A stretch of 53,317 nucleotides of DNA from Bacteroidales bacterium (GTDB lineage Bacteria > Bacteroidota > Bacteroidia > Bacteroidales > UBA932), in NCBI GenBank assembly GCA_015060225.1, contig SUYX01000013.1:1-53317 (forward strand). The letters are read 5' to 3'. Position 1 is the first letter of the stretch, and every line of letters begins with the position of its first letter. A program made the position numbers and the translations under genes. The notes beneath the pieces are model-generated. The model ran no database searches. It saw only the letters and a list, made by a program, of their open reading frames with translations, and had not been told where the DNA came from. Shown one piece after another: positions 24,129-35,119 of this stretch.

Positions 24129-24162
24129 AAAAAAGCTGACTTTTTGAAAGTCAGCTTTTTTT
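24129..24162. terminator. Bidirectional terminator between tsf and tyrA
   Basis: AAAAAAGCTGACTTT (24129-24143) pairs with AAAGTCAGCTTTTTT (24147-24161); A- and T-runs make it work for both converging operons. The tyrA stop codon lies within its right edge. Confidence 0.92.
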
Positions 24163-24976
24163 ATTTCACCCTCTCCCTCACACCATCCAGGAACTGTTTC
24201 ATTGCAGCACTATCCTTTGCAGCTACAATTTCTTTCAATTCATTCAATTTGTCTATAATGCCCTGCAACTGCCCGTTGGTGTTTGGATTGAACAGAATCT
24301 CTGTAAGGAGGTAGTCATCCTCACTCAACAGCCCATGTGCGATTGCCAGATGTTTCTTGAATGTTGTACCAGGAACCTCCTGATGCTTCATTATCGAGCC
24401 AAAAACAAGGGTTGATGCAAATGGAATTGAAAGTGAATAAGCCACAACCTCATCGTGTCCGTCAAAAGTATATTCCCTTACATTCAGCTTGAGAGAGCTG
24501 AACAGATCACGGTAGAAAATCATACCCATATAATCTGTTCCCCTAACCGCAACTTTGCCAGAAGCATCCTTATGCTGCGGTTCATTTATAATTATGGCGT
24601 TTTCTGTCTGAAGATTCCCAAGATTGGCAAAAGTTGGGCCAAACATTGGATGGACAGATACATATCTGAATCCGGACTGCTCATAGAAATCCTTGAGTCC
24701 TGTTTTTACAGATGCTATATCTGAAAGGATACACCCCTGCGGCAAATACGGCATAACCTCCCTGAATGCAGCTTCGGTATAGCTCAAGGTTACACAATTT
24801 ATCACCAGTTCAGGAGCAAATTCCTTCACTTGATCCATAGTGGAGAAACGCAATGCATTGTAGATAAAACGCATCCTCTTGAGATCCTTCTCAAAGACTG
24901 CAATCTCATGATTGAAACTCAGAAGGTCAGAAAAGAATGACCCCATCTTACCGTTCCCCAAAATAAGTATTCTCAT
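24161..24976 (-). CDS. tyrA: Prephenate dehydrogenase
   Basis: 271 residues. The N-terminal Rossmann motif is ILILGNGKMGSFF; ELVINCVTLSYTE, ILSDIASVKTG and YVSVHPMFGPTFANL (substrate-binding His in HPMFGP) mark the TyrA family. It oxidises prephenate to 4-hydroxyphenylpyruvate with NAD(P), the tyrosine branch. It is the last gene of the pheA operon, 11 bases after the DAHP synthase gene. The chorismate mutase activity resides in that neighbour, so this protein is monofunctional. Confidence 0.92.
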   Translation of the reverse strand: MRILILGNGKMGSFFSDLLSFNHEIAVFEKDLKRMRFIYNALRFSTMDQVKEFAPELVINCVTLSYTEAAFREVMPYLPQGCILSDIASVKTGLKDFYEQSGFRYVSVHPMFGPTFANLGNLQTENAIIINEPQHKDASGKVAVRGTDYMGMIFYRDLFSSLKLNVREYTFDGHDEVVAYSLSIPFASTLVFGSIMKHQEVPGTTFKKHLAIAHGLLSEDDYLLTEILFNPNTNGQLQGIIDKLNELKEIVAAKDSAAMKQFLDGVRERVK

Positions 24977-24987
24977 ATCCGTACTCT

Positions 24988-26043
24988 CTATAATGCCAAC
25001 TGTATCCTTACCGATTCCTCATGTATGCTCTTCATTATTGCAAAGACAAACTCTTTGTCCAAGTTCATTGCCTCTCCCATCTGGGCACGTTTCTCAAGAA
25101 TCTCATTGTATCGTCCTGTCTGCAATACCGGCATATTGTTCTCTTTCTTGTACATACCTATCTCCCTTGAAACCCTGTTTCTCTTTGCCAGAATGGTAAG
25201 GAGCTGCTCATCTATCTCATCTATCTGCTTACGCAATACTGAGATGTTCTCTGTTGTCTGCTTGTTCTCTCTCAAAACCAACATCTTTATGGTAAAATCC
25301 AAAACTTGCGGGGTTATCTGCTGTTTGGCATCACTTAATGCCTCGTCGGGATTACAATGTGATTCCACCATAAGTCCGTCAAACTTGAGGTCCATTGCCT
25401 GCTGCGATATTGGAGCAACCAGTTCCCTCTTTCCACCAATATGGCTCGGATCGCAGAACATTGTAATGTTCGGATAACGGCGTCTGAGTTCAATTGGAAT
25501 ATGCCATAAAGGGAGATTTCTGTAGAGTTTCTGATCATAAGTGCTGAATCCTCTCAGAATTACACCAACATTGGTAATGCCGGCATTTACAAGTCTCTGC
25601 AATGCTCCAATCCAAAGCTCAAGATCAGGATTTACAGGATTCTTTACCAGCACAGGTATATCTGTACCTTTAAGGGAATCTGCCAGCTCCTGCATTGCAA
25701 AAGGATTTGCTGCAGTTCTGGCCCCTATCCACAAAATGTCTATACCGGCTTTGACTGCTTCAAATACATGTGCAGCAGTTGCCACCTCAGTTGCCACAAG
25801 CATTCCGGTCTTCTGTTTAACCTCCTTTAGCCATGGAAGGCCAACGGTTCCTACCCCCTCAAATCCTCCCGGTTTGGTACGCGGTTTCCATATTCCTGCC
25901 CTGAATATCTTTACTCCATTCTTTGCCAATTCCTGTGCTGTATTCAACACCTGCTCACGGCTCTCTGCACTGCAGGGGCCAGCAATTATTATTGGGCGCT
26001 CTGATGCCTCAATTCCCGGTAAAACCAATTTCTCAATTTCCAT
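24988..26043 (-). CDS. Bifunctional DAHP synthase / chorismate mutase
   Basis: 351 residues in two domains. Residues about 1-255 form a class I-beta (KDPG-like) DAHP synthase: IIIAGPCSAESREQ, FRAGIWKPRTKPGGFEG, DILWIGARTAANPF, MFCDPSHIGGKRE. Residues about 265-351 form an AroQ-type chorismate mutase: VLRKQIDEIDEQLLTILAKR and RYNEILEKRAQMG. It thus makes the first shikimate-pathway intermediate and converts chorismate to prephenate. This fusion order is common in Bacteroidota and often allows feedback control through the mutase domain. It stands third in the operon. Confidence 0.95.
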   Translation of the reverse strand: MEIEKLVLPGIEASERPIIIAGPCSAESREQVLNTAQELAKNGVKIFRAGIWKPRTKPGGFEGVGTVGLPWLKEVKQKTGMLVATEVATAAHVFEAVKAGIDILWIGARTAANPFAMQELADSLKGTDIPVLVKNPVNPDLELWIGALQRLVNAGITNVGVILRGFSTYDQKLYRNLPLWHIPIELRRRYPNITMFCDPSHIGGKRELVAPISQQAMDLKFDGLMVESHCNPDEALSDAKQQITPQVLDFTIKMLVLRENKQTTENISVLRKQIDEIDEQLLTILAKRNRVSREIGMYKKENNMPVLQTGRYNEILEKRAQMGEAMNLDKEFVFAIMKSIHEESVRIQLAL

Positions 26044-26064: not shown

Positions 26065-27240
26065 CTATTCTACATTTTCATTTATCCTGCAAAGTGCCCG
26101 CTGCAATGTCTCTTCATTTGCACAAAGGGATATCCTTATATAATTATCCCCATTGGAACCGAAGATGAACCCCGGGGTGAGGAACACCTTTGCATTATAC
26201 AGCACCTTGTCACAAATATCTACACCTTTTCCCTGCACTTTTCCCCACAGAAACAGTCCCACCTGTCCTGGGGCAACCTCTGCCCCCACCTTCTCAAGTA
26301 TTGCCTGCGCCAACGCCTTGCGCGCCGCATAAACCCCGTTCATCTGCACATACCACTCTTTTGGCGCCTCAAGAGCCTTTACTGCAGCCAGCTGCATAGG
26401 GCGGAACATTCCGGAATCCATATTGCTCTTTACCCTCAATACCCACTCTACAAACTGACTGTTTGAAACAAGCGTTCCAATACGCCATCCGGGCATATTA
26501 TGGCTCTTGCTCATTGAATTGAGTTCAATGCATATATCCTTCGCTCCCTCCACACTCATGATGCTCAAAGGCTTATCATTCAGGATGAAACTGTAAGGGT
26601 TGTCGTGACAGATTATAATACCGTACTTCTTTCCAAAGGCCACAAGCCTCTCAAACAGTTCTACGGAACCGTTTGCCCCTGTAGGCATATTGGGATAATT
26701 GCACCACATGAGTTTTACAGAATCAAGGTCTATTTCCCCATTCTTGTGGGCCTGCTCCAATGCATTAAAATCGGGCTGCCACCCTTTTTCTGCACAAAGA
26801 TCATAACTTATAATTTTTGCTCCCACCAATTTGGATACAGATGAGTATGTAGGATATCCCGGATTTGGAACAAGTACCGCATCACCATCATTTACAAAAG
26901 CCATGGAGATGTGCATTATACCCTCCTTGCTGCCCATCAGCGGCAACACTCCATTGACAGGGTTGAGCTCCACACCGTACCACCTGCTGTACCATTGCGC
27001 CCATGCCTGCCTCAGTTGTGGGGTACCCACATACGGCTGATAACCGTGAGCCTTGGGATCTGCCGCCTCTTGAGCCAAAGTATCTGTAACTTCCTTAGCC
27101 GGCGGAAGATCCGGACTCCCTATCCCCAAATTTATAACATCCGCCCCCTGGGAATTCATCTGTGCAATCTCCTTCAGCTTTACAGAAAAATAATACTCCT
27201 GTACATTTGATATCCTGTCTGCTGGAACTATCTCTTTCAT
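26065..27240 (-). CDS. PLP-dependent class I/II aminotransferase, probably aromatic
   Basis: 391 residues. INLGIGSPDLPP opens the fold; VLVPNPGYPTYSSV, MWCNYPNMPTGA, and the PLP lysine in NSMSKSHNMPGWRIG identify a fold-type I aminotransferase of the aspartate/LL-DAP group. FIFGSNGDNYIRISLC is the C-terminal Arg-containing carboxylate site. Its place between pheA and DAHP synthase-mutase suggests that it transaminates phenylpyruvate and hydroxyphenylpyruvate, the last step to Phe and Tyr. Substrate is inferred from context. Confidence 0.88.
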   Translation of the reverse strand: MKEIVPADRISNVQEYYFSVKLKEIAQMNSQGADVINLGIGSPDLPPAKEVTDTLAQEAADPKAHGYQPYVGTPQLRQAWAQWYSRWYGVELNPVNGVLPLMGSKEGIMHISMAFVNDGDAVLVPNPGYPTYSSVSKLVGAKIISYDLCAEKGWQPDFNALEQAHKNGEIDLDSVKLMWCNYPNMPTGANGSVELFERLVAFGKKYGIIICHDNPYSFILNDKPLSIMSVEGAKDICIELNSMSKSHNMPGWRIGTLVSNSQFVEWVLRVKSNMDSGMFRPMQLAAVKALEAPKEWYVQMNGVYAARKALAQAILEKVGAEVAPGQVGLFLWGKVQGKGVDICDKVLYNAKVFLTPGFIFGSNGDNYIRISLCANEETLQRALCRINENVE

Positions 27241-27251
27241 ATCATTCTTAT

Positions 27252-28115
27252 TTATTGGACCGACTGTTCACCTTCCATATACTCTCCCAGTATCTGCAGA
27301 TCCTTAACAAGAGGCAATATTGCATCTACCGCCTGCCTGTATCTCCTGTAATCTGTAAAAAGGAGATTTACATAGAACTGGTATCTCCATTCCTCCCCCA
27401 CTATTGGCATTGATTGTATCATTGAGAGGTTCATGTCATAAAACGAAAGTACCGACAATACCTTTGAGAGGCTTCCGCTCATATGGGGCAATGTAAATAC
27501 CATCGAGCTTTTGTTGATGTTCTCCTGTTCAACGCACAATTCCCCCAACACATCTGTTGCCACATCCTTGTTTGCCAAAATAAGGAAACGGGTAAAGTTT
27601 CTCTTGTTTGTCTCTATCCCATCTGCAAGGATATTCATGCCATACAGTTCTGCCGCTCCCGCAGGGCATATGGCAGCATGGTCTGCAAGATTGTTCTCCT
27701 TTATCCATTTTGCACTCCCGGCAGTATCCTCTTTCTCCACCAGCTTTACATTGGGGAGGGTATCCAGAAATTCCTGGCACTGCATGAATGCCATCGGATG
27801 GGTGTTTATCTCCTTTATATCTGCCAACTGCACCCCAGGCAATGCCACCAGAGAATGGGCTATCCTCAATTTGTACTCGCCCACTATTACAAGCCTGTTG
27901 TCCTGAAGTATCTTGTAATTTTGCAAAAGACTTCCGGCAATGGTGTTCTCTATTGCCATTATTCCCAATTTTGAAGGATCCTTCACCACATGGGCAGCCA
28001 ACTCCTTGAATGTATCACAATCAATGGTCTCCACCTCATCATTCCTGAAGAATAGTTTTGCTGCAATATAATGGTTGCACCCACCTATTCCCTGTATTGC
28101 CACTTTCCGTTTCAT
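27252..28115 (-). CDS. pheA: Prephenate dehydratase
   Basis: 287 residues. The catalytic domain (1-185) has IMAIENTIAGSLLQNY and NFTRFLIL, the TRF motif needed for activity. The C-terminal ACT domain (about 200-275) starts SSMVFTLPHMSGSLSKVLSV and would sense phenylalanine. It decarboxylates and dehydrates prephenate to phenylpyruvate. It is first in the operon and is preceded by a terminator and an aromatic-rich leader peptide, so its transcription is probably attenuated by charged Phe/Tyr tRNA. Confidence 0.94.
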   Translation of the reverse strand: MKRKVAIQGIGGCNHYIAAKLFFRNDEVETIDCDTFKELAAHVVKDPSKLGIMAIENTIAGSLLQNYKILQDNRLVIVGEYKLRIAHSLVALPGVQLADIKEINTHPMAFMQCQEFLDTLPNVKLVEKEDTAGSAKWIKENNLADHAAICPAGAAELYGMNILADGIETNKRNFTRFLILANKDVATDVLGELCVEQENINKSSMVFTLPHMSGSLSKVLSVLSFYDMNLSMIQSMPIVGEEWRYQFYVNLLFTDYRRYRQAVDAILPLVKDLQILGEYMEGEQSVQ

Positions 28116-28121
28116 ATACTA

Positions 28122-28152
28122 CAAAAAAACTCCCACCACTACGGCAGGAGTT
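28122..28152 (-). terminator. Attenuator terminator before pheA
   Basis: On the minus strand ACTCCTGCC (28151-28143) pairs with GGTGGGAGT (28137-28129), nine pairs with two G-U, and a T-run follows immediately, ending seven bases before the pheA ATG. The 5' arm can alternatively pair with GGCGGGAG at 28191-28184 inside the leader peptide gene (eight pairs), which would prevent the terminator. Confidence 0.85.
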
Positions 28153-28172
28153 CATAAATTATTGTCAATTCA

Positions 28173-28253
28173 TTACATACAAGCTCCCGCCTTTAACCTG
28201 TTGCATGGATAAAAGTAAAAAAAGAAGAAGTATGTAAATCGGTTCTGTCTCAT
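28173..28253 (-). CDS. Phe/Tyr-rich attenuator leader peptide of the pheA operon
   Basis: 26-codon frame starting about ten bases after the -7 box. It begins MRQNR, runs FTYFFFFYFYP (six Phe and three Tyr in ten residues) and ends CNRLKAGACM. Codons for the KAGA part encode the segment that can pair with the terminator's 5' arm. A ribosome stalled at the Phe/Tyr codons would leave that segment free and allow read-through; one reaching the stop would cover it and let the terminator form. Gene order promoter, leader, antiterminator, terminator, pheA is that of classical attenuation as in enterobacterial pheL. The longer in-frame opening to 28370 crosses the promoter and is rejected. Confidence 0.85.
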   Translation of the reverse strand: MRQNRFTYFFFFYFYPCNRLKAGACM

Positions 28254-28262
28254 ATCTGACGA

Positions 28263-28293
28263 CAAATTTATCCATTTTATTCCAAGTTCCAAA
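28263..28293 (-). promoter_or_regulatory. Promoter of the pheA leader and operon
   Basis: The minus strand reads TTTG (28293-28290), 19 bases, TAAATTTG (28270-28263): an exact Bacteroidota promoter. It fixes the transcription start just before the leader peptide ATG. Confidence 0.88.
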
Positions 28294-28329
28294 GGATTTA
28301 AGAATTTTTTTAATACTGATAATAATTTA

Positions 28330-28337
28330 TAAATTTG
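28330..28337 (+). promoter_or_regulatory. Probable -7 promoter element of aroB
   Basis: TAAATTTG, 23 bases before the aroB ATG. The upstream region is T-rich without a clear TTTG at N19. It lies back to back with the pheA promoter. Confidence 0.55.
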
Positions 28338-28360
28338 CTTTTTGTACAAACAGAATAAAA

Positions 28361-29440
28361 ATGAAGACAAATATCTATATCAATAAGAGCCTCAGCGGTT
28401 TATCTGATTTGGCATTAGCAAAAGACAAAACTTTTGTTATAATTGATAACAATTTGAAACATCTCTCTTCATTTTTTAAAGATTTTCCTCAGATTTCCTT
28501 TGTATCAAGTGAGCAGAACAAGGTTATGGATACAATTGGAGAGATTGCCGGAAAGCTCCTCAATCTTGGAGCAGACAGGGATGCCCTTGTTATTGGAGTG
28601 GGGGGAGGAATAACCACAGACATTACCGGCTTCATTTCTTCCATATATAAAAGGGGAGTAAAGTTTGCCTTTGTTCCAACTACACTGCTCTCCCAAGTGG
28701 ATGCCTCCATTGGAGGAAAAAACGGAGTGAATTTCCAGTCATACAAAAATATTCTTGGAACCATTACCCAACCTGAATGGATTTACATATGCCCTGAGCT
28801 GCTTTCCACCCTTCCTCAAGATGAATTCAAGGCGGGAATTGCAGAAGTTCTCAAGACATTCATACTCTTTGATAAAGTCCATTACCGCAGCGCTGTAGAG
28901 TATTTCAGTGCAGTTGCAGATGAATATGCCCTGGCAGGGGAAACTGGAATTACATACGGTGAGATTGCCACAAGGGTGGACATGGAAAAGCTATGTGAAA
29001 TCATAGGGAAGTGCGCCCGGTACAAATGTGGTGTGGTTGAGAGGGATGAATTTGAAAAGGGGGAGAGAAGACTACTCAATCTGGGACACACATTTGCCCA
29101 TTCCATTGAGAAACTTACCGGGGGAGAGATTTCTCACGGTTATGCAGTTGCCATAGGGATAGTGATAGCAGCAAGGATAGCATGCTCCATGGGGATGGGC
29201 AATGAAGAGTTTGCAAGGATACTTGCAGAAGATTTACGCATGTGCGGACTCCCAGCAACCCTGCAGGAGTGCAGCGCAACATCACACCTTAAGATCAGGG
29301 ACCTTGCAGATGCAGTAAAAAAGGACAAGAAAGTTACAGGCAACAATATCCATTTCATCCTTCCAAAAGGGTTGGAGGATGTGGAGGATGTCATCATCCC
29401 GATAGAGACCATTAAAACCATTTGCAATGATTTGTGTTAG
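28361..29440 (+). CDS. aroB: 3-dehydroquinate synthase
   Basis: 359 residues. Motifs: VIGVGGGITTDITGFISSIY (NAD loop), FAFVPTTLLSQVDASIGGKNGVN (metal and substrate site), AGIAEVLKTF, and LLNLGHTFAHSIEKLTGG with a metal-binding His. It converts DAHP to 3-dehydroquinate. The last 14 bases overlap the start of the aroD-aroA gene, suggesting translational coupling. The operon continues to aroC. Confidence 0.95.
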   Translation: MKTNIYINKSLSGLSDLALAKDKTFVIIDNNLKHLSSFFKDFPQISFVSSEQNKVMDTIGEIAGKLLNLGADRDALVIGVGGGITTDITGFISSIYKRGVKFAFVPTTLLSQVDASIGGKNGVNFQSYKNILGTITQPEWIYICPELLSTLPQDEFKAGIAEVLKTFILFDKVHYRSAVEYFSAVADEYALAGETGITYGEIATRVDMEKLCEIIGKCARYKCGVVERDEFEKGERRLLNLGHTFAHSIEKLTGGEISHGYAVAIGIVIAARIACSMGMGNEEFARILAEDLRMCGLPATLQECSATSHLKIRDLADAVKKDKKVTGNNIHFILPKGLEDVEDVIIPIETIKTICNDLC

Positions 29441-31475
29441 CGTTCAGGAAAAGGATTTTACAAAGTGCAGGGAAATACTCAAGAGTTCCCCTATGGTGGA
29501 GTTGAGAGGAGATCTGTGCGGTTTCACTGCGGCACAGACAGCTGAACTGGTTCAGATGCATCCCAACCTGCTCTACACCCACAGGATAGCTGGGAGCTCG
29601 TTGGAAACTGCCTACAGCTGTATGGTGGAAGCTATAAAGAAGGGGGCCAAATATATTGACATTGAGATTGAAGCACCTGTAGATTACCTTGAGCAGATAA
29701 AATCCTATGCAAGGGTCAACGGATGTACACTCATTATATCCTATCACAATTTTGAAGGGACACAATCCCTGCAAGAACTGCAGACCATATATGACATCTG
29801 CCGCCGCAAAGGGGCAGATATAGTTAAGATTGTAACTACTGCACACAACATCTCTGATGCTTCAAGGGTGATGCAGCTATACAGATACTGCAAAAAGGAC
29901 AGTGAACTTGTAGTTTCAAATTACATGGAGAGGGGCGAGGAGAGCGGTTCTCTGAGCAACAGTTTTGGAGAGGAACAGGCCAGGTTGCTCGCTTTCTGCA
30001 TGGGTAAAGCAGGGAAATTCACAAGGCATCTTTGCCTGGCTTTGGGTGCCCCATACACCTATACGGCGTTGGATGATGCTTCGGCAACTGCACCTGGGCA
30101 GTTTACCAGGGAGGAGGTGGAGAGGCTTCTGTGCAAAGATGAATACAAGTTCCCTACCATGAGGCGTGAAGAGACAATCTTTGGAGAGGCAATGCCCGCA
30201 CTGGAGATTCCATGCTCAAAAAGCATAGCCCAAAGAGCTGTTCTGGCAGCAGCACTTGCAGAAGGGAAGACCGTTTTGAGGAACTTTGAGCCTTGCAATG
30301 ATATTCTTGGGGCCGTAGAAGTGATAAAATCTTTGGGTGCAGAAGTTGGTTTGGAGGGGACAACCTTAACTGTAAATGGATGCGGTGCCGAATCCCTCAA
30401 GGAGATCTCTTCCATATTTGTTGGGGAGAGCGGTCTTCTTACAAGGCTTCTGATACCAATGGCTGCATATTTGTCGGGAGGAGAAAAGGAGATTGAAATT
30501 TACGGGAAGGGGAGTATCCTCAAAAGGAATCTCACTGAGTCTGCCAATGCGGTGGAGGCTGCCGGGGCACAATGCACTACAAATGGAGGACTCCTTCCAT
30601 TCAAGGTTAGCGGAGGGATAACTGAAAACTGCATAGAGTTTTCGGGGAAAGAGAGTTCCCAGATAGTTTCAGGGTTCCTGATGATGCTCCCACTGCAGAA
30701 AAACGGCTCCACCCTCATCATAACAGAGCCTGCAAGTATCCCATATATAGATCTCACATTACGGGTACTGAAGAGTTTTGGAATAATAATTCATCAGGAG
30801 AGGGAGCTGCCGCATAAGATAACCTACAGGATTCCCGGAGGACAAAAATACCGTCCTACAGAAATGTATATGGATTCCGACTGGAGTTCTGCCGCAAATT
30901 TTGCGGTTGCAGGGGCCCTTACAGGTGGCATAACCCTTAAAAACATGCCTCTTGACTCTTCTCAGGCAGATGAGAATATAATCAACCTGCTACAAGGATT
31001 CGGATACGGGATAAAGGCTGAGGCAGCTGGAGAATTCAATGATATAACCATATACCCTACCCTTCCCGACAATCCGGGGGGAATATCGGGAAGGAGGGAG
31101 TTTTCATTGCATGACTGCCCTGACCTCTTCCCCATTGCAGCAGTTATGGCATGTATGGGCGAGGGAGATACCGTTTTTGAGGGGGTAGGAAGACTTGCCC
31201 AGAAAGAGAGCAACAGGGCTGAGACCGTTTTCAGTGAACTCACCAAATTGGGATTTGATATACAGATTGACGGCGATAAGATGTATATTTGCGGCAAAGG
31301 GAAATCATCCTGCCGCAATGTTGGGGAACCTGTGCTCTGCAACAGCCATAACGACCACAGAATAGCAATGGCCCTTTATATTGCCTCATTAGCCGGCGAT
31401 ATTGATATAAAGGTGGATAATATAAAATGTATAGACAAGTCTTTCCCTACATTTTTGGAAAGACTTAAAAAATAA
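29427..31475 (+). CDS. aroDA: Fused 3-dehydroquinate dehydratase (type I) / EPSP synthase
   Basis: 682 residues in one uninterrupted frame. Residues 1-about 235 are a type I dehydroquinase: MVELRGDLCG (substrate Glu/Arg), IISYHNFEGT (catalytic His) and DIVKIVTTAHN (Schiff-base Lys). Residues about 250-682 are EPSP synthase: IPCSKSIAQRAVLAAALAEG, FVGESGLLTRLLIPMAA, and SHNDHRIAMALYIASLAG. It performs dehydroquinate to dehydroshikimate and shikimate 3-phosphate plus PEP to EPSP. These two steps are not consecutive; shikimate dehydrogenase and kinase act between them and are not in this window. Linking Phe-Pro-Thr-rich residues sit near 238-246. All catalytic motifs are present, so both halves look active. 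Confidence 0.92.
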   Translation: MICVSVQEKDFTKCREILKSSPMVELRGDLCGFTAAQTAELVQMHPNLLYTHRIAGSSLETAYSCMVEAIKKGAKYIDIEIEAPVDYLEQIKSYARVNGCTLIISYHNFEGTQSLQELQTIYDICRRKGADIVKIVTTAHNISDASRVMQLYRYCKKDSELVVSNYMERGEESGSLSNSFGEEQARLLAFCMGKAGKFTRHLCLALGAPYTYTALDDASATAPGQFTREEVERLLCKDEYKFPTMRREETIFGEAMPALEIPCSKSIAQRAVLAAALAEGKTVLRNFEPCNDILGAVEVIKSLGAEVGLEGTTLTVNGCGAESLKEISSIFVGESGLLTRLLIPMAAYLSGGEKEIEIYGKGSILKRNLTESANAVEAAGAQCTTNGGLLPFKVSGGITENCIEFSGKESSQIVSGFLMMLPLQKNGSTLIITEPASIPYIDLTLRVLKSFGIIIHQERELPHKITYRIPGGQKYRPTEMYMDSDWSSAANFAVAGALTGGITLKNMPLDSSQADENIINLLQGFGYGIKAEAAGEFNDITIYPTLPDNPGGISGRREFSLHDCPDLFPIAAVMACMGEGDTVFEGVGRLAQKESNRAETVFSELTKLGFDIQIDGDKMYICGKGKSSCRNVGEPVLCNSHNDHRIAMALYIASLAGDIDIKVDNIKCIDKSFPTFLERLKK

Positions 31476-31479
31476 TGAC

Positions 31480-32451
31480 ATGAACAGCTACGGTAACAAA
31501 TTCAGAATTTCCATGTTTGGTGAGTCTCACGGTGAGCTCATTGGTATTGTTATGGACGGTGTCCCTGCAGGGATTCCCCTTTGTGCAGAAGATTTTATTG
31601 CTGATTTGAGCCGTAGGAAAAGCGGAGGAAAAGGGACGACTCCCCGCATTGAGAGCGACATGCCCCATATTGTAAGCGGCGTTTTTGACGGGCATACTAC
31701 AGGGGCGCCTCTTGCAGTGGTATTCCAGAACGGAAACACCATCTCCAAAGATTACTCCCAGTTCAGAGCCGTTCCACGCCCGGGGCATGCAGATTTTACT
31801 GCAGATGTAAAGTTCAGCTCATTCAATGACATAAGGGGTGGAGGACATTTTTCGGGAAGACTTACACTCGTTCTTGTTACAGCTGGTACTGTTGCCAAGA
31901 AGATTGCTTCAGATATCAGTTTCAATGCTGCCATCACACATATTGGAGGGTCGGATGAGCCTGCGGCCTGGGACGGGATAATTTCAGGTGCTATGGCGGA
32001 AGGAGATTCTGTAGGGGGCATTATTGAGTGTGTATGCAACGGAGTTCCTGCAGGTTTGGGTGAGCCGTTCTTCAACTCCCTTGAGTCTGAAATTGCCCAT
32101 CTGGCATTCTCAATTCCTGGAGTGAGGGGTATTGAATTTGGAGACGGATTCAGCTCTGCGGCCATGAAAGGTAGCCAGCACAATGACAGCTTTATAGACC
32201 AACAAGGGCATACAGCCACCAATGGTGCCGGCGGTATAAATGGTGGAATAAGCAACGGCAACCCCGTTGTATTCAGGATTGCCGTAAAACCCACTTCAAG
32301 CATTTCCAAAATCCAGCACACATTCAATTTTGAATCCGGCGAAATGGAAGATTTCTCTGTAAAGGGGAGACATGACGCCTGCATCGCCTTGCGTTGCCCT
32401 GTAATTGTTGAAGCCATTGCTGCAATAGCCCTGGCCCAACATATCCGCTAA
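31480..32451 (+). CDS. aroC: Chorismate synthase
   Basis: 323 residues, about 30 shorter than the common 350-360. NKFRISMFGESHGELIGIVMDGVPAG, RPGHADFTADVKF, DIRGGGHFSGRLTLVLVTAG (the HFSGRLT variant in place of SSARET), NDSFIDQQGHTATNGAGGINGG and the C-terminal GRHDACIALRCPVIVEA define the family. It removes phosphate from EPSP to form chorismate with reduced FMN. It follows the aroD-aroA fusion by 4 bases. Its end overlaps by four bases that of the convergent receptor gene. Confidence 0.95.
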   Translation: MNSYGNKFRISMFGESHGELIGIVMDGVPAGIPLCAEDFIADLSRRKSGGKGTTPRIESDMPHIVSGVFDGHTTGAPLAVVFQNGNTISKDYSQFRAVPRPGHADFTADVKFSSFNDIRGGGHFSGRLTLVLVTAGTVAKKIASDISFNAAITHIGGSDEPAAWDGIISGAMAEGDSVGGIIECVCNGVPAGLGEPFFNSLESEIAHLAFSIPGVRGIEFGDGFSSAAMKGSQHNDSFIDQQGHTATNGAGGINGGISNGNPVVFRIAVKPTSSISKIQHTFNFESGEMEDFSVKGRHDACIALRCPVIVEAIAAIALAQHIR

Positions 32452-34979
32452 AGTGTAAGTTTCACACCAAAGGCACAATTGCGTCCCTGCCCCCAATATC
32501 CTGTGAAGGTATTGATGGTATGGTCTTTCCCGTCTTTTCCCCTCTCTATATACCACTCATCAAATACATTGTTGAGATTAAAGAAGAAATTTGCTCCAAC
32601 TGCCTTATTGCCCATCCTGAAGTATTTAAGATAGCTTACACTTATATTTACAAGATGGTAATCAGGCAATTTGAACGGCTCTGTCCGGTCATTTGCATCA
32701 GTTCTGGTGTTAGGCTCAAAATCTGCCCAATACCTTGCACTGTAATTCCAGCCCAACTGTACAGTAAGTTCTCCATTTGCAGCATCTGATATAGTACCCA
32801 TAGGGTCAATCACTGAATATCCGCTCAAAGAGCCAAGAGGTTTGAGTGTAAGGTTTGCCCCTATCTGTGTCTGTGGAGCATCACCTACAGGAAGGCCATT
32901 GCTGTAAACGTCTATTCTCTGTGCAACCTGTCCTGTATAGTTGTCATAAATGATTGCATTTACATCATTCTTCCATTTCCAGCTGCCTATTGAGGCATAA
33001 CCTGCAAGTTTTCCCCATCTGCTGAAATTGTAATAGGCATCCACCTCCACTCCATAATGGAATGCATCAAGGCCTGTTATCATATATTTGCAGGCATCCT
33101 CACTCTCCTGCTGTTTGTACGGAGAACTCATTATTGACTTGTTCTTCCAGTAGCTTGCATAGAAGGTTGCCTCTATTCCTGCTCTGCCAAATACAGAACG
33201 GAAACCGGCCTCTCCAAGGTAATTCTGTTCATTTTCAACCCCCTCAGAAATATGGTTGTTGCCGCTTGCAAAGAATACATTTGAATATGGCACCCTGCTG
33301 TAATATGCACCGTTAACATAAAGGCTTGTAGCAGCATTGTCTGAAGATTTTATTCTGTACAGTGCACCTGCCTTTACTGCTCCTCCAAGCCCCTTTGCCC
33401 AATCGCTGTAGATATCATTTACATAATTGTAGCTGTCCCATCTTTGGGTTGCAGAACCGTTCAATAAGGCCCCAAGCTCAATATTCCATCTTGGATTCTT
33501 ATATGACAGGGATGTATAAAGGGTCCCAAAATGGGTATCCTTACCGTTTCTGGTACGGATATAGTCCCCAACCTTCTTAATTGGATTTCTCCCTGCAGCC
33601 CCTGCCAGTGATTTTGTAGAATAATCTTCATACCAATATTCTGCACCAAGGAGATCCCTTATCTGCTCCTTTTCCCATGTAAAATAGCCCTGATAATGGA
33701 ATCCTCCACCCAAAGTAAATTTCTCTGAAAGCTCAAGCTCAAAAGCACTCTTTGCCCCTATCTGGGTATGTCCGGCTATATAATCACTCAACGCATTCTG
33801 GGCAGATTTCTCCTGCTCTGTTGTACCATTTGCATATGCAGCTCTATTCTCCGCTACAACTGCATCCCAATCTACATGACCATCAGTCTGGTGGGCAGCG
33901 ATGCTTTTTCCTTTAGTCTCTGTCCAATATCCGCCACCATGCGCCAATGCAAGGTATATTGCATTGTTCAATCTGAAATTGCGCTGTTTTTCACCCACTT
34001 TTGCATTATAATAATGGTTAAGGGTAAAATATGGCTTATGGTAATTGTTTCTGCTTATGCTGCGGGCCTCCCTGTAACCGTCGGGATGAGTGATGTATCC
34101 CCAGTTCTTGCTGTAGCTCCTGCCGTACTTCTGTACCTCATCATAGGTTAATCTGGCAGACCTCTGGCTGTGCTTCTCCGGTGAGCCCATTGCTGTAAAC
34201 AGGAATGAGTGTCTGGTGTTGACCTTCTTGCTTACAGAGAGAAGGTATGACCATGCATCCACATCTGTACACTCCACCCAACTGTCTCCCCACACTTTGG
34301 ATACCAGGAAAGAGACTCCCCAGCCTTTGCCCAACTCACCGCTGTTATAATTTATAAAGGCTTTTGAAGTTCCTCCACCTGCATAATTGTAACCCACTCC
34401 GTATGTAGGGGTCTTGCCCGGGCTCTTGGTTACAATATTTATACTTCCTCCAACAGAATTGTCGCTGAGCATACTACCTCCAACACCCTTCTGTACCTGA
34501 ATTGTGGCTGTTGCATCAGTAAGTCCCAGCCAGTTGTTCCAGTACATGCTGCCGCTGGTAAGCCCAGAAATTGGAATACCGTTGAGCAATACAGATATGT
34601 TCTCCTGCTTGAAACCCCTTATGTTTATTTTGGCATCTCCGTAACTTCCTGTCTCTGCTGTTGCATAAATGCCCGGTATATCCTTCAGAAGCTCAGGATA
34701 TGTCTTTCCTGCAGCCTGTACTGCAATAGTTTTCTCATCAATATCAACCAACCTCAATGGAGATACATTTTTCCTCTTTACTCCCGACGATACTATAATC
34801 TCCTTTATGAGAATGGAACTGTCGGGAAGCTGGACAGCAGGATTGCCCTCATCTGCCACTGCTTTGAAGAGTTTCTTTTCTGAATCTGTTGATTTAAGTT
34901 CTGTTGCCTGTATACCTGATGAGGCAACGCAAAATAGGAGCGCCGCAGCGCTTAGCTGAGTGAAAAATTTTTTTGACAT
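32448..34979 (-). CDS. TonB-dependent outer-membrane receptor under FMN riboswitch, predicted flavin importer
   Basis: 843 residues. A signal peptide (LSAAALLFCVASSGIQA) leads to a TonB-box-like SILIKEIIVSSGVKR, then a plug domain (PELLKDIPGIYATAETGSYG, INIRGFKQENISVLLNGIP, VQKGVGGSMLSDNSVGGSIN) and a barrel rich in aromatic residues ending FGVKLTL. It lacks the SusC-type N-terminal domain and has no SusD partner. The start codon lies 10 bases after an FMN riboswitch, which in bacteria controls riboflavin synthesis or uptake genes. I therefore infer that it imports riboflavin or another flavin across the outer membrane. The inner-membrane partner is not in the window. Confidence 0.85.
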   Translation of the reverse strand: MSKKFFTQLSAAALLFCVASSGIQATELKSTDSEKKLFKAVADEGNPAVQLPDSSILIKEIIVSSGVKRKNVSPLRLVDIDEKTIAVQAAGKTYPELLKDIPGIYATAETGSYGDAKINIRGFKQENISVLLNGIPISGLTSGSMYWNNWLGLTDATATIQVQKGVGGSMLSDNSVGGSINIVTKSPGKTPTYGVGYNYAGGGTSKAFINYNSGELGKGWGVSFLVSKVWGDSWVECTDVDAWSYLLSVSKKVNTRHSFLFTAMGSPEKHSQRSARLTYDEVQKYGRSYSKNWGYITHPDGYREARSISRNNYHKPYFTLNHYYNAKVGEKQRNFRLNNAIYLALAHGGGYWTETKGKSIAAHQTDGHVDWDAVVAENRAAYANGTTEQEKSAQNALSDYIAGHTQIGAKSAFELELSEKFTLGGGFHYQGYFTWEKEQIRDLLGAEYWYEDYSTKSLAGAAGRNPIKKVGDYIRTRNGKDTHFGTLYTSLSYKNPRWNIELGALLNGSATQRWDSYNYVNDIYSDWAKGLGGAVKAGALYRIKSSDNAATSLYVNGAYYSRVPYSNVFFASGNNHISEGVENEQNYLGEAGFRSVFGRAGIEATFYASYWKNKSIMSSPYKQQESEDACKYMITGLDAFHYGVEVDAYYNFSRWGKLAGYASIGSWKWKNDVNAIIYDNYTGQVAQRIDVYSNGLPVGDAPQTQIGANLTLKPLGSLSGYSVIDPMGTISDAANGELTVQLGWNYSARYWADFEPNTRTDANDRTEPFKLPDYHLVNISVSYLKYFRMGNKAVGANFFFNLNNVFDEWYIERGKDGKDHTINTFTGYWGQGRNCAFGVKLTL

Positions 34980-34988
34980 GACATTTAA

Positions 34989-35110
34989 AATTTACTTCCA
35001 TCCAGACTTTAACTGTTGGTACCGTAGTTTCAACGGTTCCACCTTTGGCCTGCAGCCTCAGGGTCGCGGACTTTACCGCCAGTGGGGACTTTCACCCCGC
35101 CCCGGAAATT
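34989..35110 (-). ncRNA. FMN riboswitch (RFN element)
   Basis: Read on the minus strand the aptamer shows the conserved blocks in order: GGGGCGGGGTGAAAGTCCCC, CTGGCGGTAAAGTCCGCGA, the variable stem with GGCTGCAGGCC, TTGAAACTACGGTACC, and ACAGTTAAAGTCTGGATGGA. The ends AATTTCC and GGAAGTAAATT pair as P1. The consensus match is strong. The receptor ATG follows P1 by about ten bases with no terminator between, so control is probably translational: FMN binding would stabilise P1 and hide the initiation region, lowering expression when flavin is plentiful. Confidence 0.93.
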
Positions 35111-35119
35111 TTAACTGTA

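Follow-up and report, generated by a model that had tools for sequence, protein, structure and literature searches.

A putative Phe/Tyr transcription attenuator ahead of the pheA operon in a Bacteroidales genome and its relatives

The window, that is, the whole stretch of 53,317 nucleotides from a Bacteroidales bacterium analyzed here, carries on its minus strand a four-gene Phe/Tyr operon with pheA at its head.

27252..28115, minus strand: pheA, prephenate dehydratase (PF00800 above cut-off; best NCBIfam matches below cut-off)
26065..27240, minus strand: aminotransferase of an LL-diaminopimelate aminotransferase-like family (best NCBIfam match, below curated cut-offs)
24988..26043, minus strand: DAHP synthase-chorismate mutase (DAHPS/CM) fusion (best NCBIfam match, below curated cut-offs)
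24161..24976, minus strand: tyrA, prephenate dehydrogenase (best NCBIfam match, below curated cut-offs)

Because the NCBIfam scores lie below the curated cut-offs, the gene names used here are those of the best matches. On the divergent side of the operon lie aroB, an aroD-aroA fusion, and aroC. The fusion is a 682-aa ORF (29427 to 31475, plus strand) in which a 3-dehydroquinate dehydratase domain precedes EPSP synthase. No PF00425 chorismate-binding enzyme (TrpE, PabB, or MenF type) was found in the same genome (G000), the assembly of which is about 86% complete. Besides, an FMN riboswitch (34986 to 35113, minus strand; Rfam score, 104 bits) is located just 5' of a minus-strand ORF (32448 to 34979) that by eye looks like an outer-membrane TonB-type receptor and not a riboflavin biosynthesis gene, and a second FMN riboswitch was found in locus L007.

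By sequence inspection, the parts of a Phe/Tyr attenuator occupy the minus strand from 28293 to 28119, upstream of pheA, and all of them were found where the sequence-only reading had placed them.

28290..28293, minus strand: -33-like element TTTG of a Bacteroidota-type promoter (from the sequence)
28263..28270, minus strand: -7 element TAAATTTG, 19 nt past TTTG and 9 nt ahead of the leader ATG
28173..28253, minus strand: leader ORF MRQNRFTYFFFFYFYPCNRLKAGACM, 26 codons plus stop (from the scan and the leaders of orthologues)
28209..28238, minus strand: control codons F T Y F F F F Y F Y (codons 6 to 15), in segment 1 (from the scan); predicted ribosome stall site
28173..28195, minus strand: segment 2, predicted partner of segment 1 (about 28237..28210) in ribosome-free RNA
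28184..28191, minus strand: antiterminator strand GGCGGGAG, within segment 2 and the final leader codons
28142..28153, minus strand: segment 3, terminator 5' arm and alternative partner of segment 2 (from folding and covariation)
28127..28138, minus strand: segment 4, terminator 3' arm, reaching into the T tract 28129..28123 (from folding and covariation)
28153..28127, minus strand: terminator hairpin, 12 pairs including G-U, 5 of them G-C, loop of 3, then seven T (from folding)

The 26-codon leader with nine aromatic codons in ten was recovered exactly as claimed. Indeed, CTCCTGCC (28150..28143), which lies within segment 3, is complementary to GGCGGGAG (28191..28184), and the downstream segment claimed to pair with a terminator arm is hence present. 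The terminator described earlier as nine pairs with a T-run is the same hairpin under a stricter count. Its stem ends 11 nt short of the pheA ATG (28115), and the fold of the attenuator stretch gave a z value of -2.27.

The claimed promoter was likewise found, with both elements at the spacing listed above. The Bacteroidota promoter consensus, TTTG / TAnnTTTG, reportedly goes back to Bayley et al. 2000; the putative promoter and start site were placed by this consensus alone. In 54 of the 75 full attenuators, TAnnTTTG occurred within the 60 nt that precede the leader start, compared with 161 of 3,750 mononucleotide shuffles. A sigma-70 scan had no match at 28293..28263 and gave a weak one on the minus strand at 28348..28319, and three sigma-70 sites were present in the region versus 3.2 expected. 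With only 9 nt between the -7 element and the leader ATG, the transcript may have almost no 5' UTR before the leader ORF; among the 54 motif-bearing loci, 12 have a distance of at most 10 nt.

Initiation, stalling, termination, and read-through can be predicted from these parts as follows. RNA polymerase would start a few bases ahead of the leader ATG, with a ribosome trailing it. When Phe or Tyr is scarce, the ribosome would stall in the F/Y run and leave GGCGGGAG free to pair with CTCCTGCC (2:3), so that no terminator would form and the operon would be transcribed. When both amino acids are ample, the ribosome would reach the stop codon and mask GGCGGGAG, and the 3:4 terminator would then halt transcription ahead of pheA.

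We compared the pairings in 70 distinct leaders with those formed when strands were swapped between loci, in a test that, like the covariation tests below, takes no account of relatedness among loci. The own 2:3 pairing had a mean of -13.9 kcal/mol versus -9.0 kcal/mol after swapping, the own 3:4 pairing had a mean of -16.5 versus -8.4 kcal/mol, and none of 10,000 swapped-strand permutations reached either own value. The own segment 3 was the top partner of segment 2 in just 17 of the 70 leaders (median rank, 4.5), and in 50 of the 70 the own pairing was unreached by any of 50 mononucleotide shuffles. In 22 aligned leaders, 91.5% of the cells were paired for 2:3 and 90.0% for 3:4; none of 500 shuffles and no slid version attained the values for paired cells, both-sides-changed cells, or covariation score. 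The pairs changed on both sides (3 for 2:3 and 6 for 3:4) were not above the shuffles (63/500 and 258/500, respectively), and neither was the count of further pair types. The expectation that aromatic codons and co-changing stems would be conserved in orthologues was largely borne out.

The geometry of the leaders is consistent with a switch operated by the ribosome. The antiterminator starts 5 to 18 nt (median, 12) past the last aromatic codon in these 70 leaders; a ribosome placed on the middle aromatic codon leaves it free in all 70, and a ribosome at the stop codon covers at least half of it in 60. When the footprint of a stalled ribosome was masked, the antiterminator was the predicted fold in 69/70 leaders, and with the ribosome at the stop codon the antiterminator was predicted in 0/70 and the terminator in 69/70. 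Folding without a ribosome gave 2:3 in 43/70 leaders for RNA reaching to the terminator loop and the terminator in 66/70 for the complete RNA. By eye, the 22 folds of aligned leaders also show a hairpin in which the codon run pairs with segment 2 (1:2). Against synonymous alternatives (third-position test, 22 aligned loci), it had a mean z value of -1.55 and ranked at or below 5 in 100 in 10 of the 22; 1:2 may thus act as a protector hairpin, a role with only moderate support. As a positive control, the same detector returned E. coli pheL, with 10 pairs in its terminator and 8 in its antiterminator. The earlier claim of a pheL-like arrangement therefore stands for order, spacing, and mutually exclusive pairing, but the window carries a putative Phe-plus-Tyr sensor and not a Phe-only copy.

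A hairpin with a T tract was present in 81 of 86 leaders, an arrangement typical of intrinsic termination. This bears on the question of whether regulation might act at another level, by Rho-dependent termination or by hairpin control of pheA translation, with the leader ORF serving as a ribosome relay. The structure could affect pheA initiation because the gap between terminator and pheA is so short, 11 nt here and less than 20 nt in many loci. The gap is, however, about 200 to 220 nt in L021, L022, and L068, and together with the T tracts this makes control at another level very unlikely in our judgment.

The codons of the leaders tend to fit the products of the operons. The 151 leaders with a terminator contained 24.0% F, 16.9% Y, and 1.2% W. 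Sensing of Trp in addition to Phe and Tyr was rejected, as W showed no evident enrichment there or in the 70 distinct leaders (1.1%). Three loci at which pheA stands alone first showed Tyr-free runs, from which a prediction relating Tyr codons to operon content was derived and set before the next sample. The pheA-alone loci with leader and terminator, which span four families (f51, f61, f71, and f182), had no Tyr in the run in four cases and 1 in the other two (6/6 with no more than 1), and at least 2 Tyr were found in 103/103 full loci with tyrA downstream (Fisher test, 5e-10, with relatedness ignored). Loci with other operon genes and no tyrA in view had 1 to 5 Tyr (37 loci, 26 of them with less than 5 kb in view). 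This comparison omits five full loci with less than 1 kb of downstream view, and the view at L276 spans only 1.2 kb. When leaders with at least 6 F/Y codons and no detected terminator were admitted, the pheA-alone loci again had no more than 1 Tyr in 6/6 (L322 in and L301 out), and tyrA loci had at least 2 Tyr in 118/119, the exception being L293, with tyrA, 1 Tyr, and no detected terminator. Within the single family f51, the lone pheA of L187 follows a run free of Tyr, the tyrA-containing operon of L298 comes with 4 Tyr, and L271, where tyrA lies 579 nt farther on, has 5.

The stricter rule that Tyr codons need tyrA was rejected, since L196, L218, L170, L176, and others keep Tyr without it: these four and L179, L241, L245, and L247 have 2 to 5 Tyr and no tyrA within a view of at least 5 kb. 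L005, L229, and L260, without tyrA in view, have 1 Tyr each, and the leader peptide chosen for L229 differs between two scans. An early prediction that L144 would be without tyrA or DAHPS was half right, as L144/L260 has DAHPS and no tyrA. Both Phe and Tyr synthesis can draw on chorismate mutase and the aminotransferase, and Tyr control in operons without tyrA may therefore make sense. Leader codon identity may hint at the operon product and aid annotation of uncultured genomes.

The same counts help to weigh whether the leader acts through its own peptide sequence, by nascent-chain arrest of the kind found in TnaC-like leaders, instead of through slow decoding of Phe and Tyr codons. Close relatives of the window do share a partly identical peptide (RFTY.., KAG..M), but the conserved C terminus in this group is the antiterminator sequence itself. 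Across families, F/Y content alone persists while order, length, and the remainder of the peptide vary, and this content tracks that of the operon; arrest by the peptide is accordingly hard to credit.

We further examined how readily the arrangement arises by chance. Among 3,000 dinucleotide shuffles of the 246 nt upstream of pheA in the window, 60 had a leader with at least 6 F/Y per 10 codons, none of them exceeding 7 in 10 codons compared with 9 in the window leader, and none had the complete anatomy. The complete anatomy was present at 75 of 148 usable pheA upstream regions versus 0 of 2,960 shuffles, the leader alone being found in 69 of those 2,960. Furthermore, 23 loci contained 303 ORFs of at least 150 aa; the complete anatomy was present at 12 of these, and 12/12 were pheA. 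The F/Y run alone is not unique, because seven-F/Y-codon runs occur at 5 places in the same genome (14 overlapping matches, versus 3 matches of a reversed control pattern); it is the ordered set of parts, and not the F/Y run by itself, that is distinctive. A chance origin of the set was rejected, as the full anatomy never appeared in shuffles. An unregulated, constitutive intergenic terminator beside a T-rich tract that reads F/Y by accident draws on the AT-rich region, the shuffled leaders, and the genomic runs, but it is scarcely believable against a full set that is absent from shuffles, is confined to pheA among the ORFs, and has strands that change together.

The attenuator arrangement recurs in most of the sampled members of the order Bacteroidales that carry pheA. 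Some pheA loci were found by protein similarity and further ones by PF00800 profile matches, which were present in 28/60, 132/294, and 45/168 genomes of the order and class samples, many genomes having no match. A leader with at least 6 F/Y per 10 codons was found in 26/27 genomes with pheA in the first sample of the order, and such a leader was found in 74/83 loci in the second, for which 132 genomes matched, 17 were left unread, and L278 duplicates a genome already read. In the family of the window, the leader was present in 13/22 genomes, the misses including L140 and L141, with less than 150 nt of upstream sequence. Elsewhere in the class, it was present in 28/32 genomes of the first sample and, at the threshold of 6, in only 7/22 new genomes of the second, in which the four Bacteroidales genomes had it in 4/4. 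Outside the class, it was found in 1/38 loci (38 of 95 matched genomes read).

After merging of same-genome loci, 246 distinct pheA remained, 151 with leader and terminator and 95 without; of the latter, 37 lie outside the class and 18 bear a leader without a scan-detected terminator. These counts come from a fixed scan of about 400 nt upstream of pheA, which misses short runs and imperfect stems (at L128, a short F/Y leader missed by the scan is visible by eye), with a leader threshold of 6 F/Y in 10 codons in the earlier counts and 5 in the later samples and the final table.

Several gaps fall between close relatives. Within one genus, L005/L146 retain the attenuator, and L018/L148 and L004/L147 show a promoter-like sequence directly before pheA; L014 and L015, also close relatives, are without an attenuator. 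Such losses between close relatives are natural experiments, and leaders whose codons track gene content provide further ones. L004 and L018, moreover, have none of the other three operon genes (aminotransferase, DAHPS/CM, tyrA) behind pheA. At L075 and L084, there is no room for a leader because an open frame extends to pheA, and the 0.49-Mb genome G285 (L220) has no attenuator. L152 has a pheA match with two stops and, by eye, a decayed leader and an intact-looking terminator-like hairpin upstream. At L021 and L022, TAAC repeats lie between pheA and the attenuator, about 200 to 220 nt upstream.

Leaders for another amino acid were also seen. At the hisG locus of the same genome (L153, G000:C54, about 1196 to 1340), a His leader, MRQFISNHMHLHHHILSNMMRYACGL, is followed by a hairpin and a T run before hisG; this hairpin was seen by eye and is absent from the scan output. 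Among 30 Bacteroidales hisG loci, this one included, 13 had at least 4 His per 10 codons, compared with 2 of 600 mononucleotide shuffles. At L168, a PF00682 (leuA-like) match, no leader was seen by eye.

Taken together, the locus has a leader ORF rich in product codons, an intrinsic terminator, and an antiterminator that a ribosome could switch, as classical attenuators do. The sequence shows that the parts are present, mutually exclusive, and conserved and that codon identity matches operon content; this makes it very probable that pheA-aminotransferase-DAHPS/CM-tyrA is controlled by ribosome-mediated transcription attenuation in response to the charging of Phe-tRNA and Tyr-tRNA. With less assurance, we lean toward a broader view, in which a widespread and probably old dual Phe-plus-Tyr attenuator of Bacteroidia has had its codons retuned to gene content, Tyr being lost when pheA stands alone and kept with tyrA or with steps shared by Phe and Tyr; we hold this view less firmly because of the low leader count in the second class sample outside the order.

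If the attenuator works as proposed, one leader would integrate the charging signals of two tRNAs and would require coupling of ribosome and polymerase in Bacteroidota, where translation starts largely without Shine-Dalgarno sites. The attenuator bears on coupling because read-through that depends on ribosome position works only if transcription and translation are coupled; coupling here is therefore implied by ribosome-mediated attenuation, and not the reverse. Transcription-translation coupling in Bacteroidota thereby becomes a directly testable question.

A known Rfam element was rejected as an explanation, since nothing reached the gathering score on the leader. The Phe_leader model (RF01859) scored 16.9 bits at 28122-28247 (minus strand; cut-off, 55; model positions 1-125 of 125; E, 2.6) and had no gathering-score match in 20 other pheA loci. 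Bacteroid-trp (RF01692) had none in the window, in these 20 loci, or in 4 further loci, the 20-locus scan giving one unrelated Flavo-1 match, in L064. The leader likewise had no gathering-score T-box match, the FMN riboswitch elsewhere being the sole Rfam match in the window.

Within the phylum, a close counterpart is a 5' element of Flavobacteriaceae. Excerpts of PMC9723704 describe strong indications that leader peptides mediate attenuation ahead of amino-acid operons in Flavobacterium psychrophilum; they also describe 5' elements before pheA and hisG that are conserved in Flavobacteriaceae and have no Rfam hits. The sequence-only reading, which was uncertain about earlier reports for the phylum, needs amendment in this respect. 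That element shares with the window the gene, the phylum, a structured 5' region, and attenuation inferred for amino-acid operons, but the excerpts state no leader sequence, Tyr sensing, or distribution past the family. Bacteroid-trp RNA, which has a table row in the excerpt of PMC2864571 and is called trp-leader-like in that of PMC6414381, is also a candidate cis-regulatory motif of Bacteroidetes, but for the trp operon. An excerpt of PMC7366714 mentions that some long 5' UTRs of Bacteroides thetaiotaomicron contain sORFs resembling leader peptides. The literature searched contained no statement of Phe-plus-Tyr leaders or of class-wide occurrence, which does not prove that there is none; such leaders may already feature in the comparative attenuator survey of Lopatovskaya et al. 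2010 (Mol Biol 44:128), as cited in an excerpt of PMC4833913.

The attenuation mechanism itself is already known, and E. coli pheL-pheA is among the systems closest to the window attenuator. Both have a leader with control codons, an overlapping antiterminator and terminator, and pheA as the first gene. E. coli pheL has Phe codons and no Tyr, and the tyrA gene of E. coli belongs to a separate unit with aroF on the opposite strand, whereas the window combines a Phe-plus-Tyr leader with a Bacteroidota-type promoter and a Phe/Tyr operon of four genes. Attenuators for several amino acids are familiar from E. coli ilvL (Ile/Val/Leu) and thrL (Thr/Ile), in which, as here, one leader carries codons for several operon products, though for other amino acids. 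The window leader would work like pheL yet is outside the curated RF01859 family, and its predicted specificity for Phe and Tyr together is apparently new.
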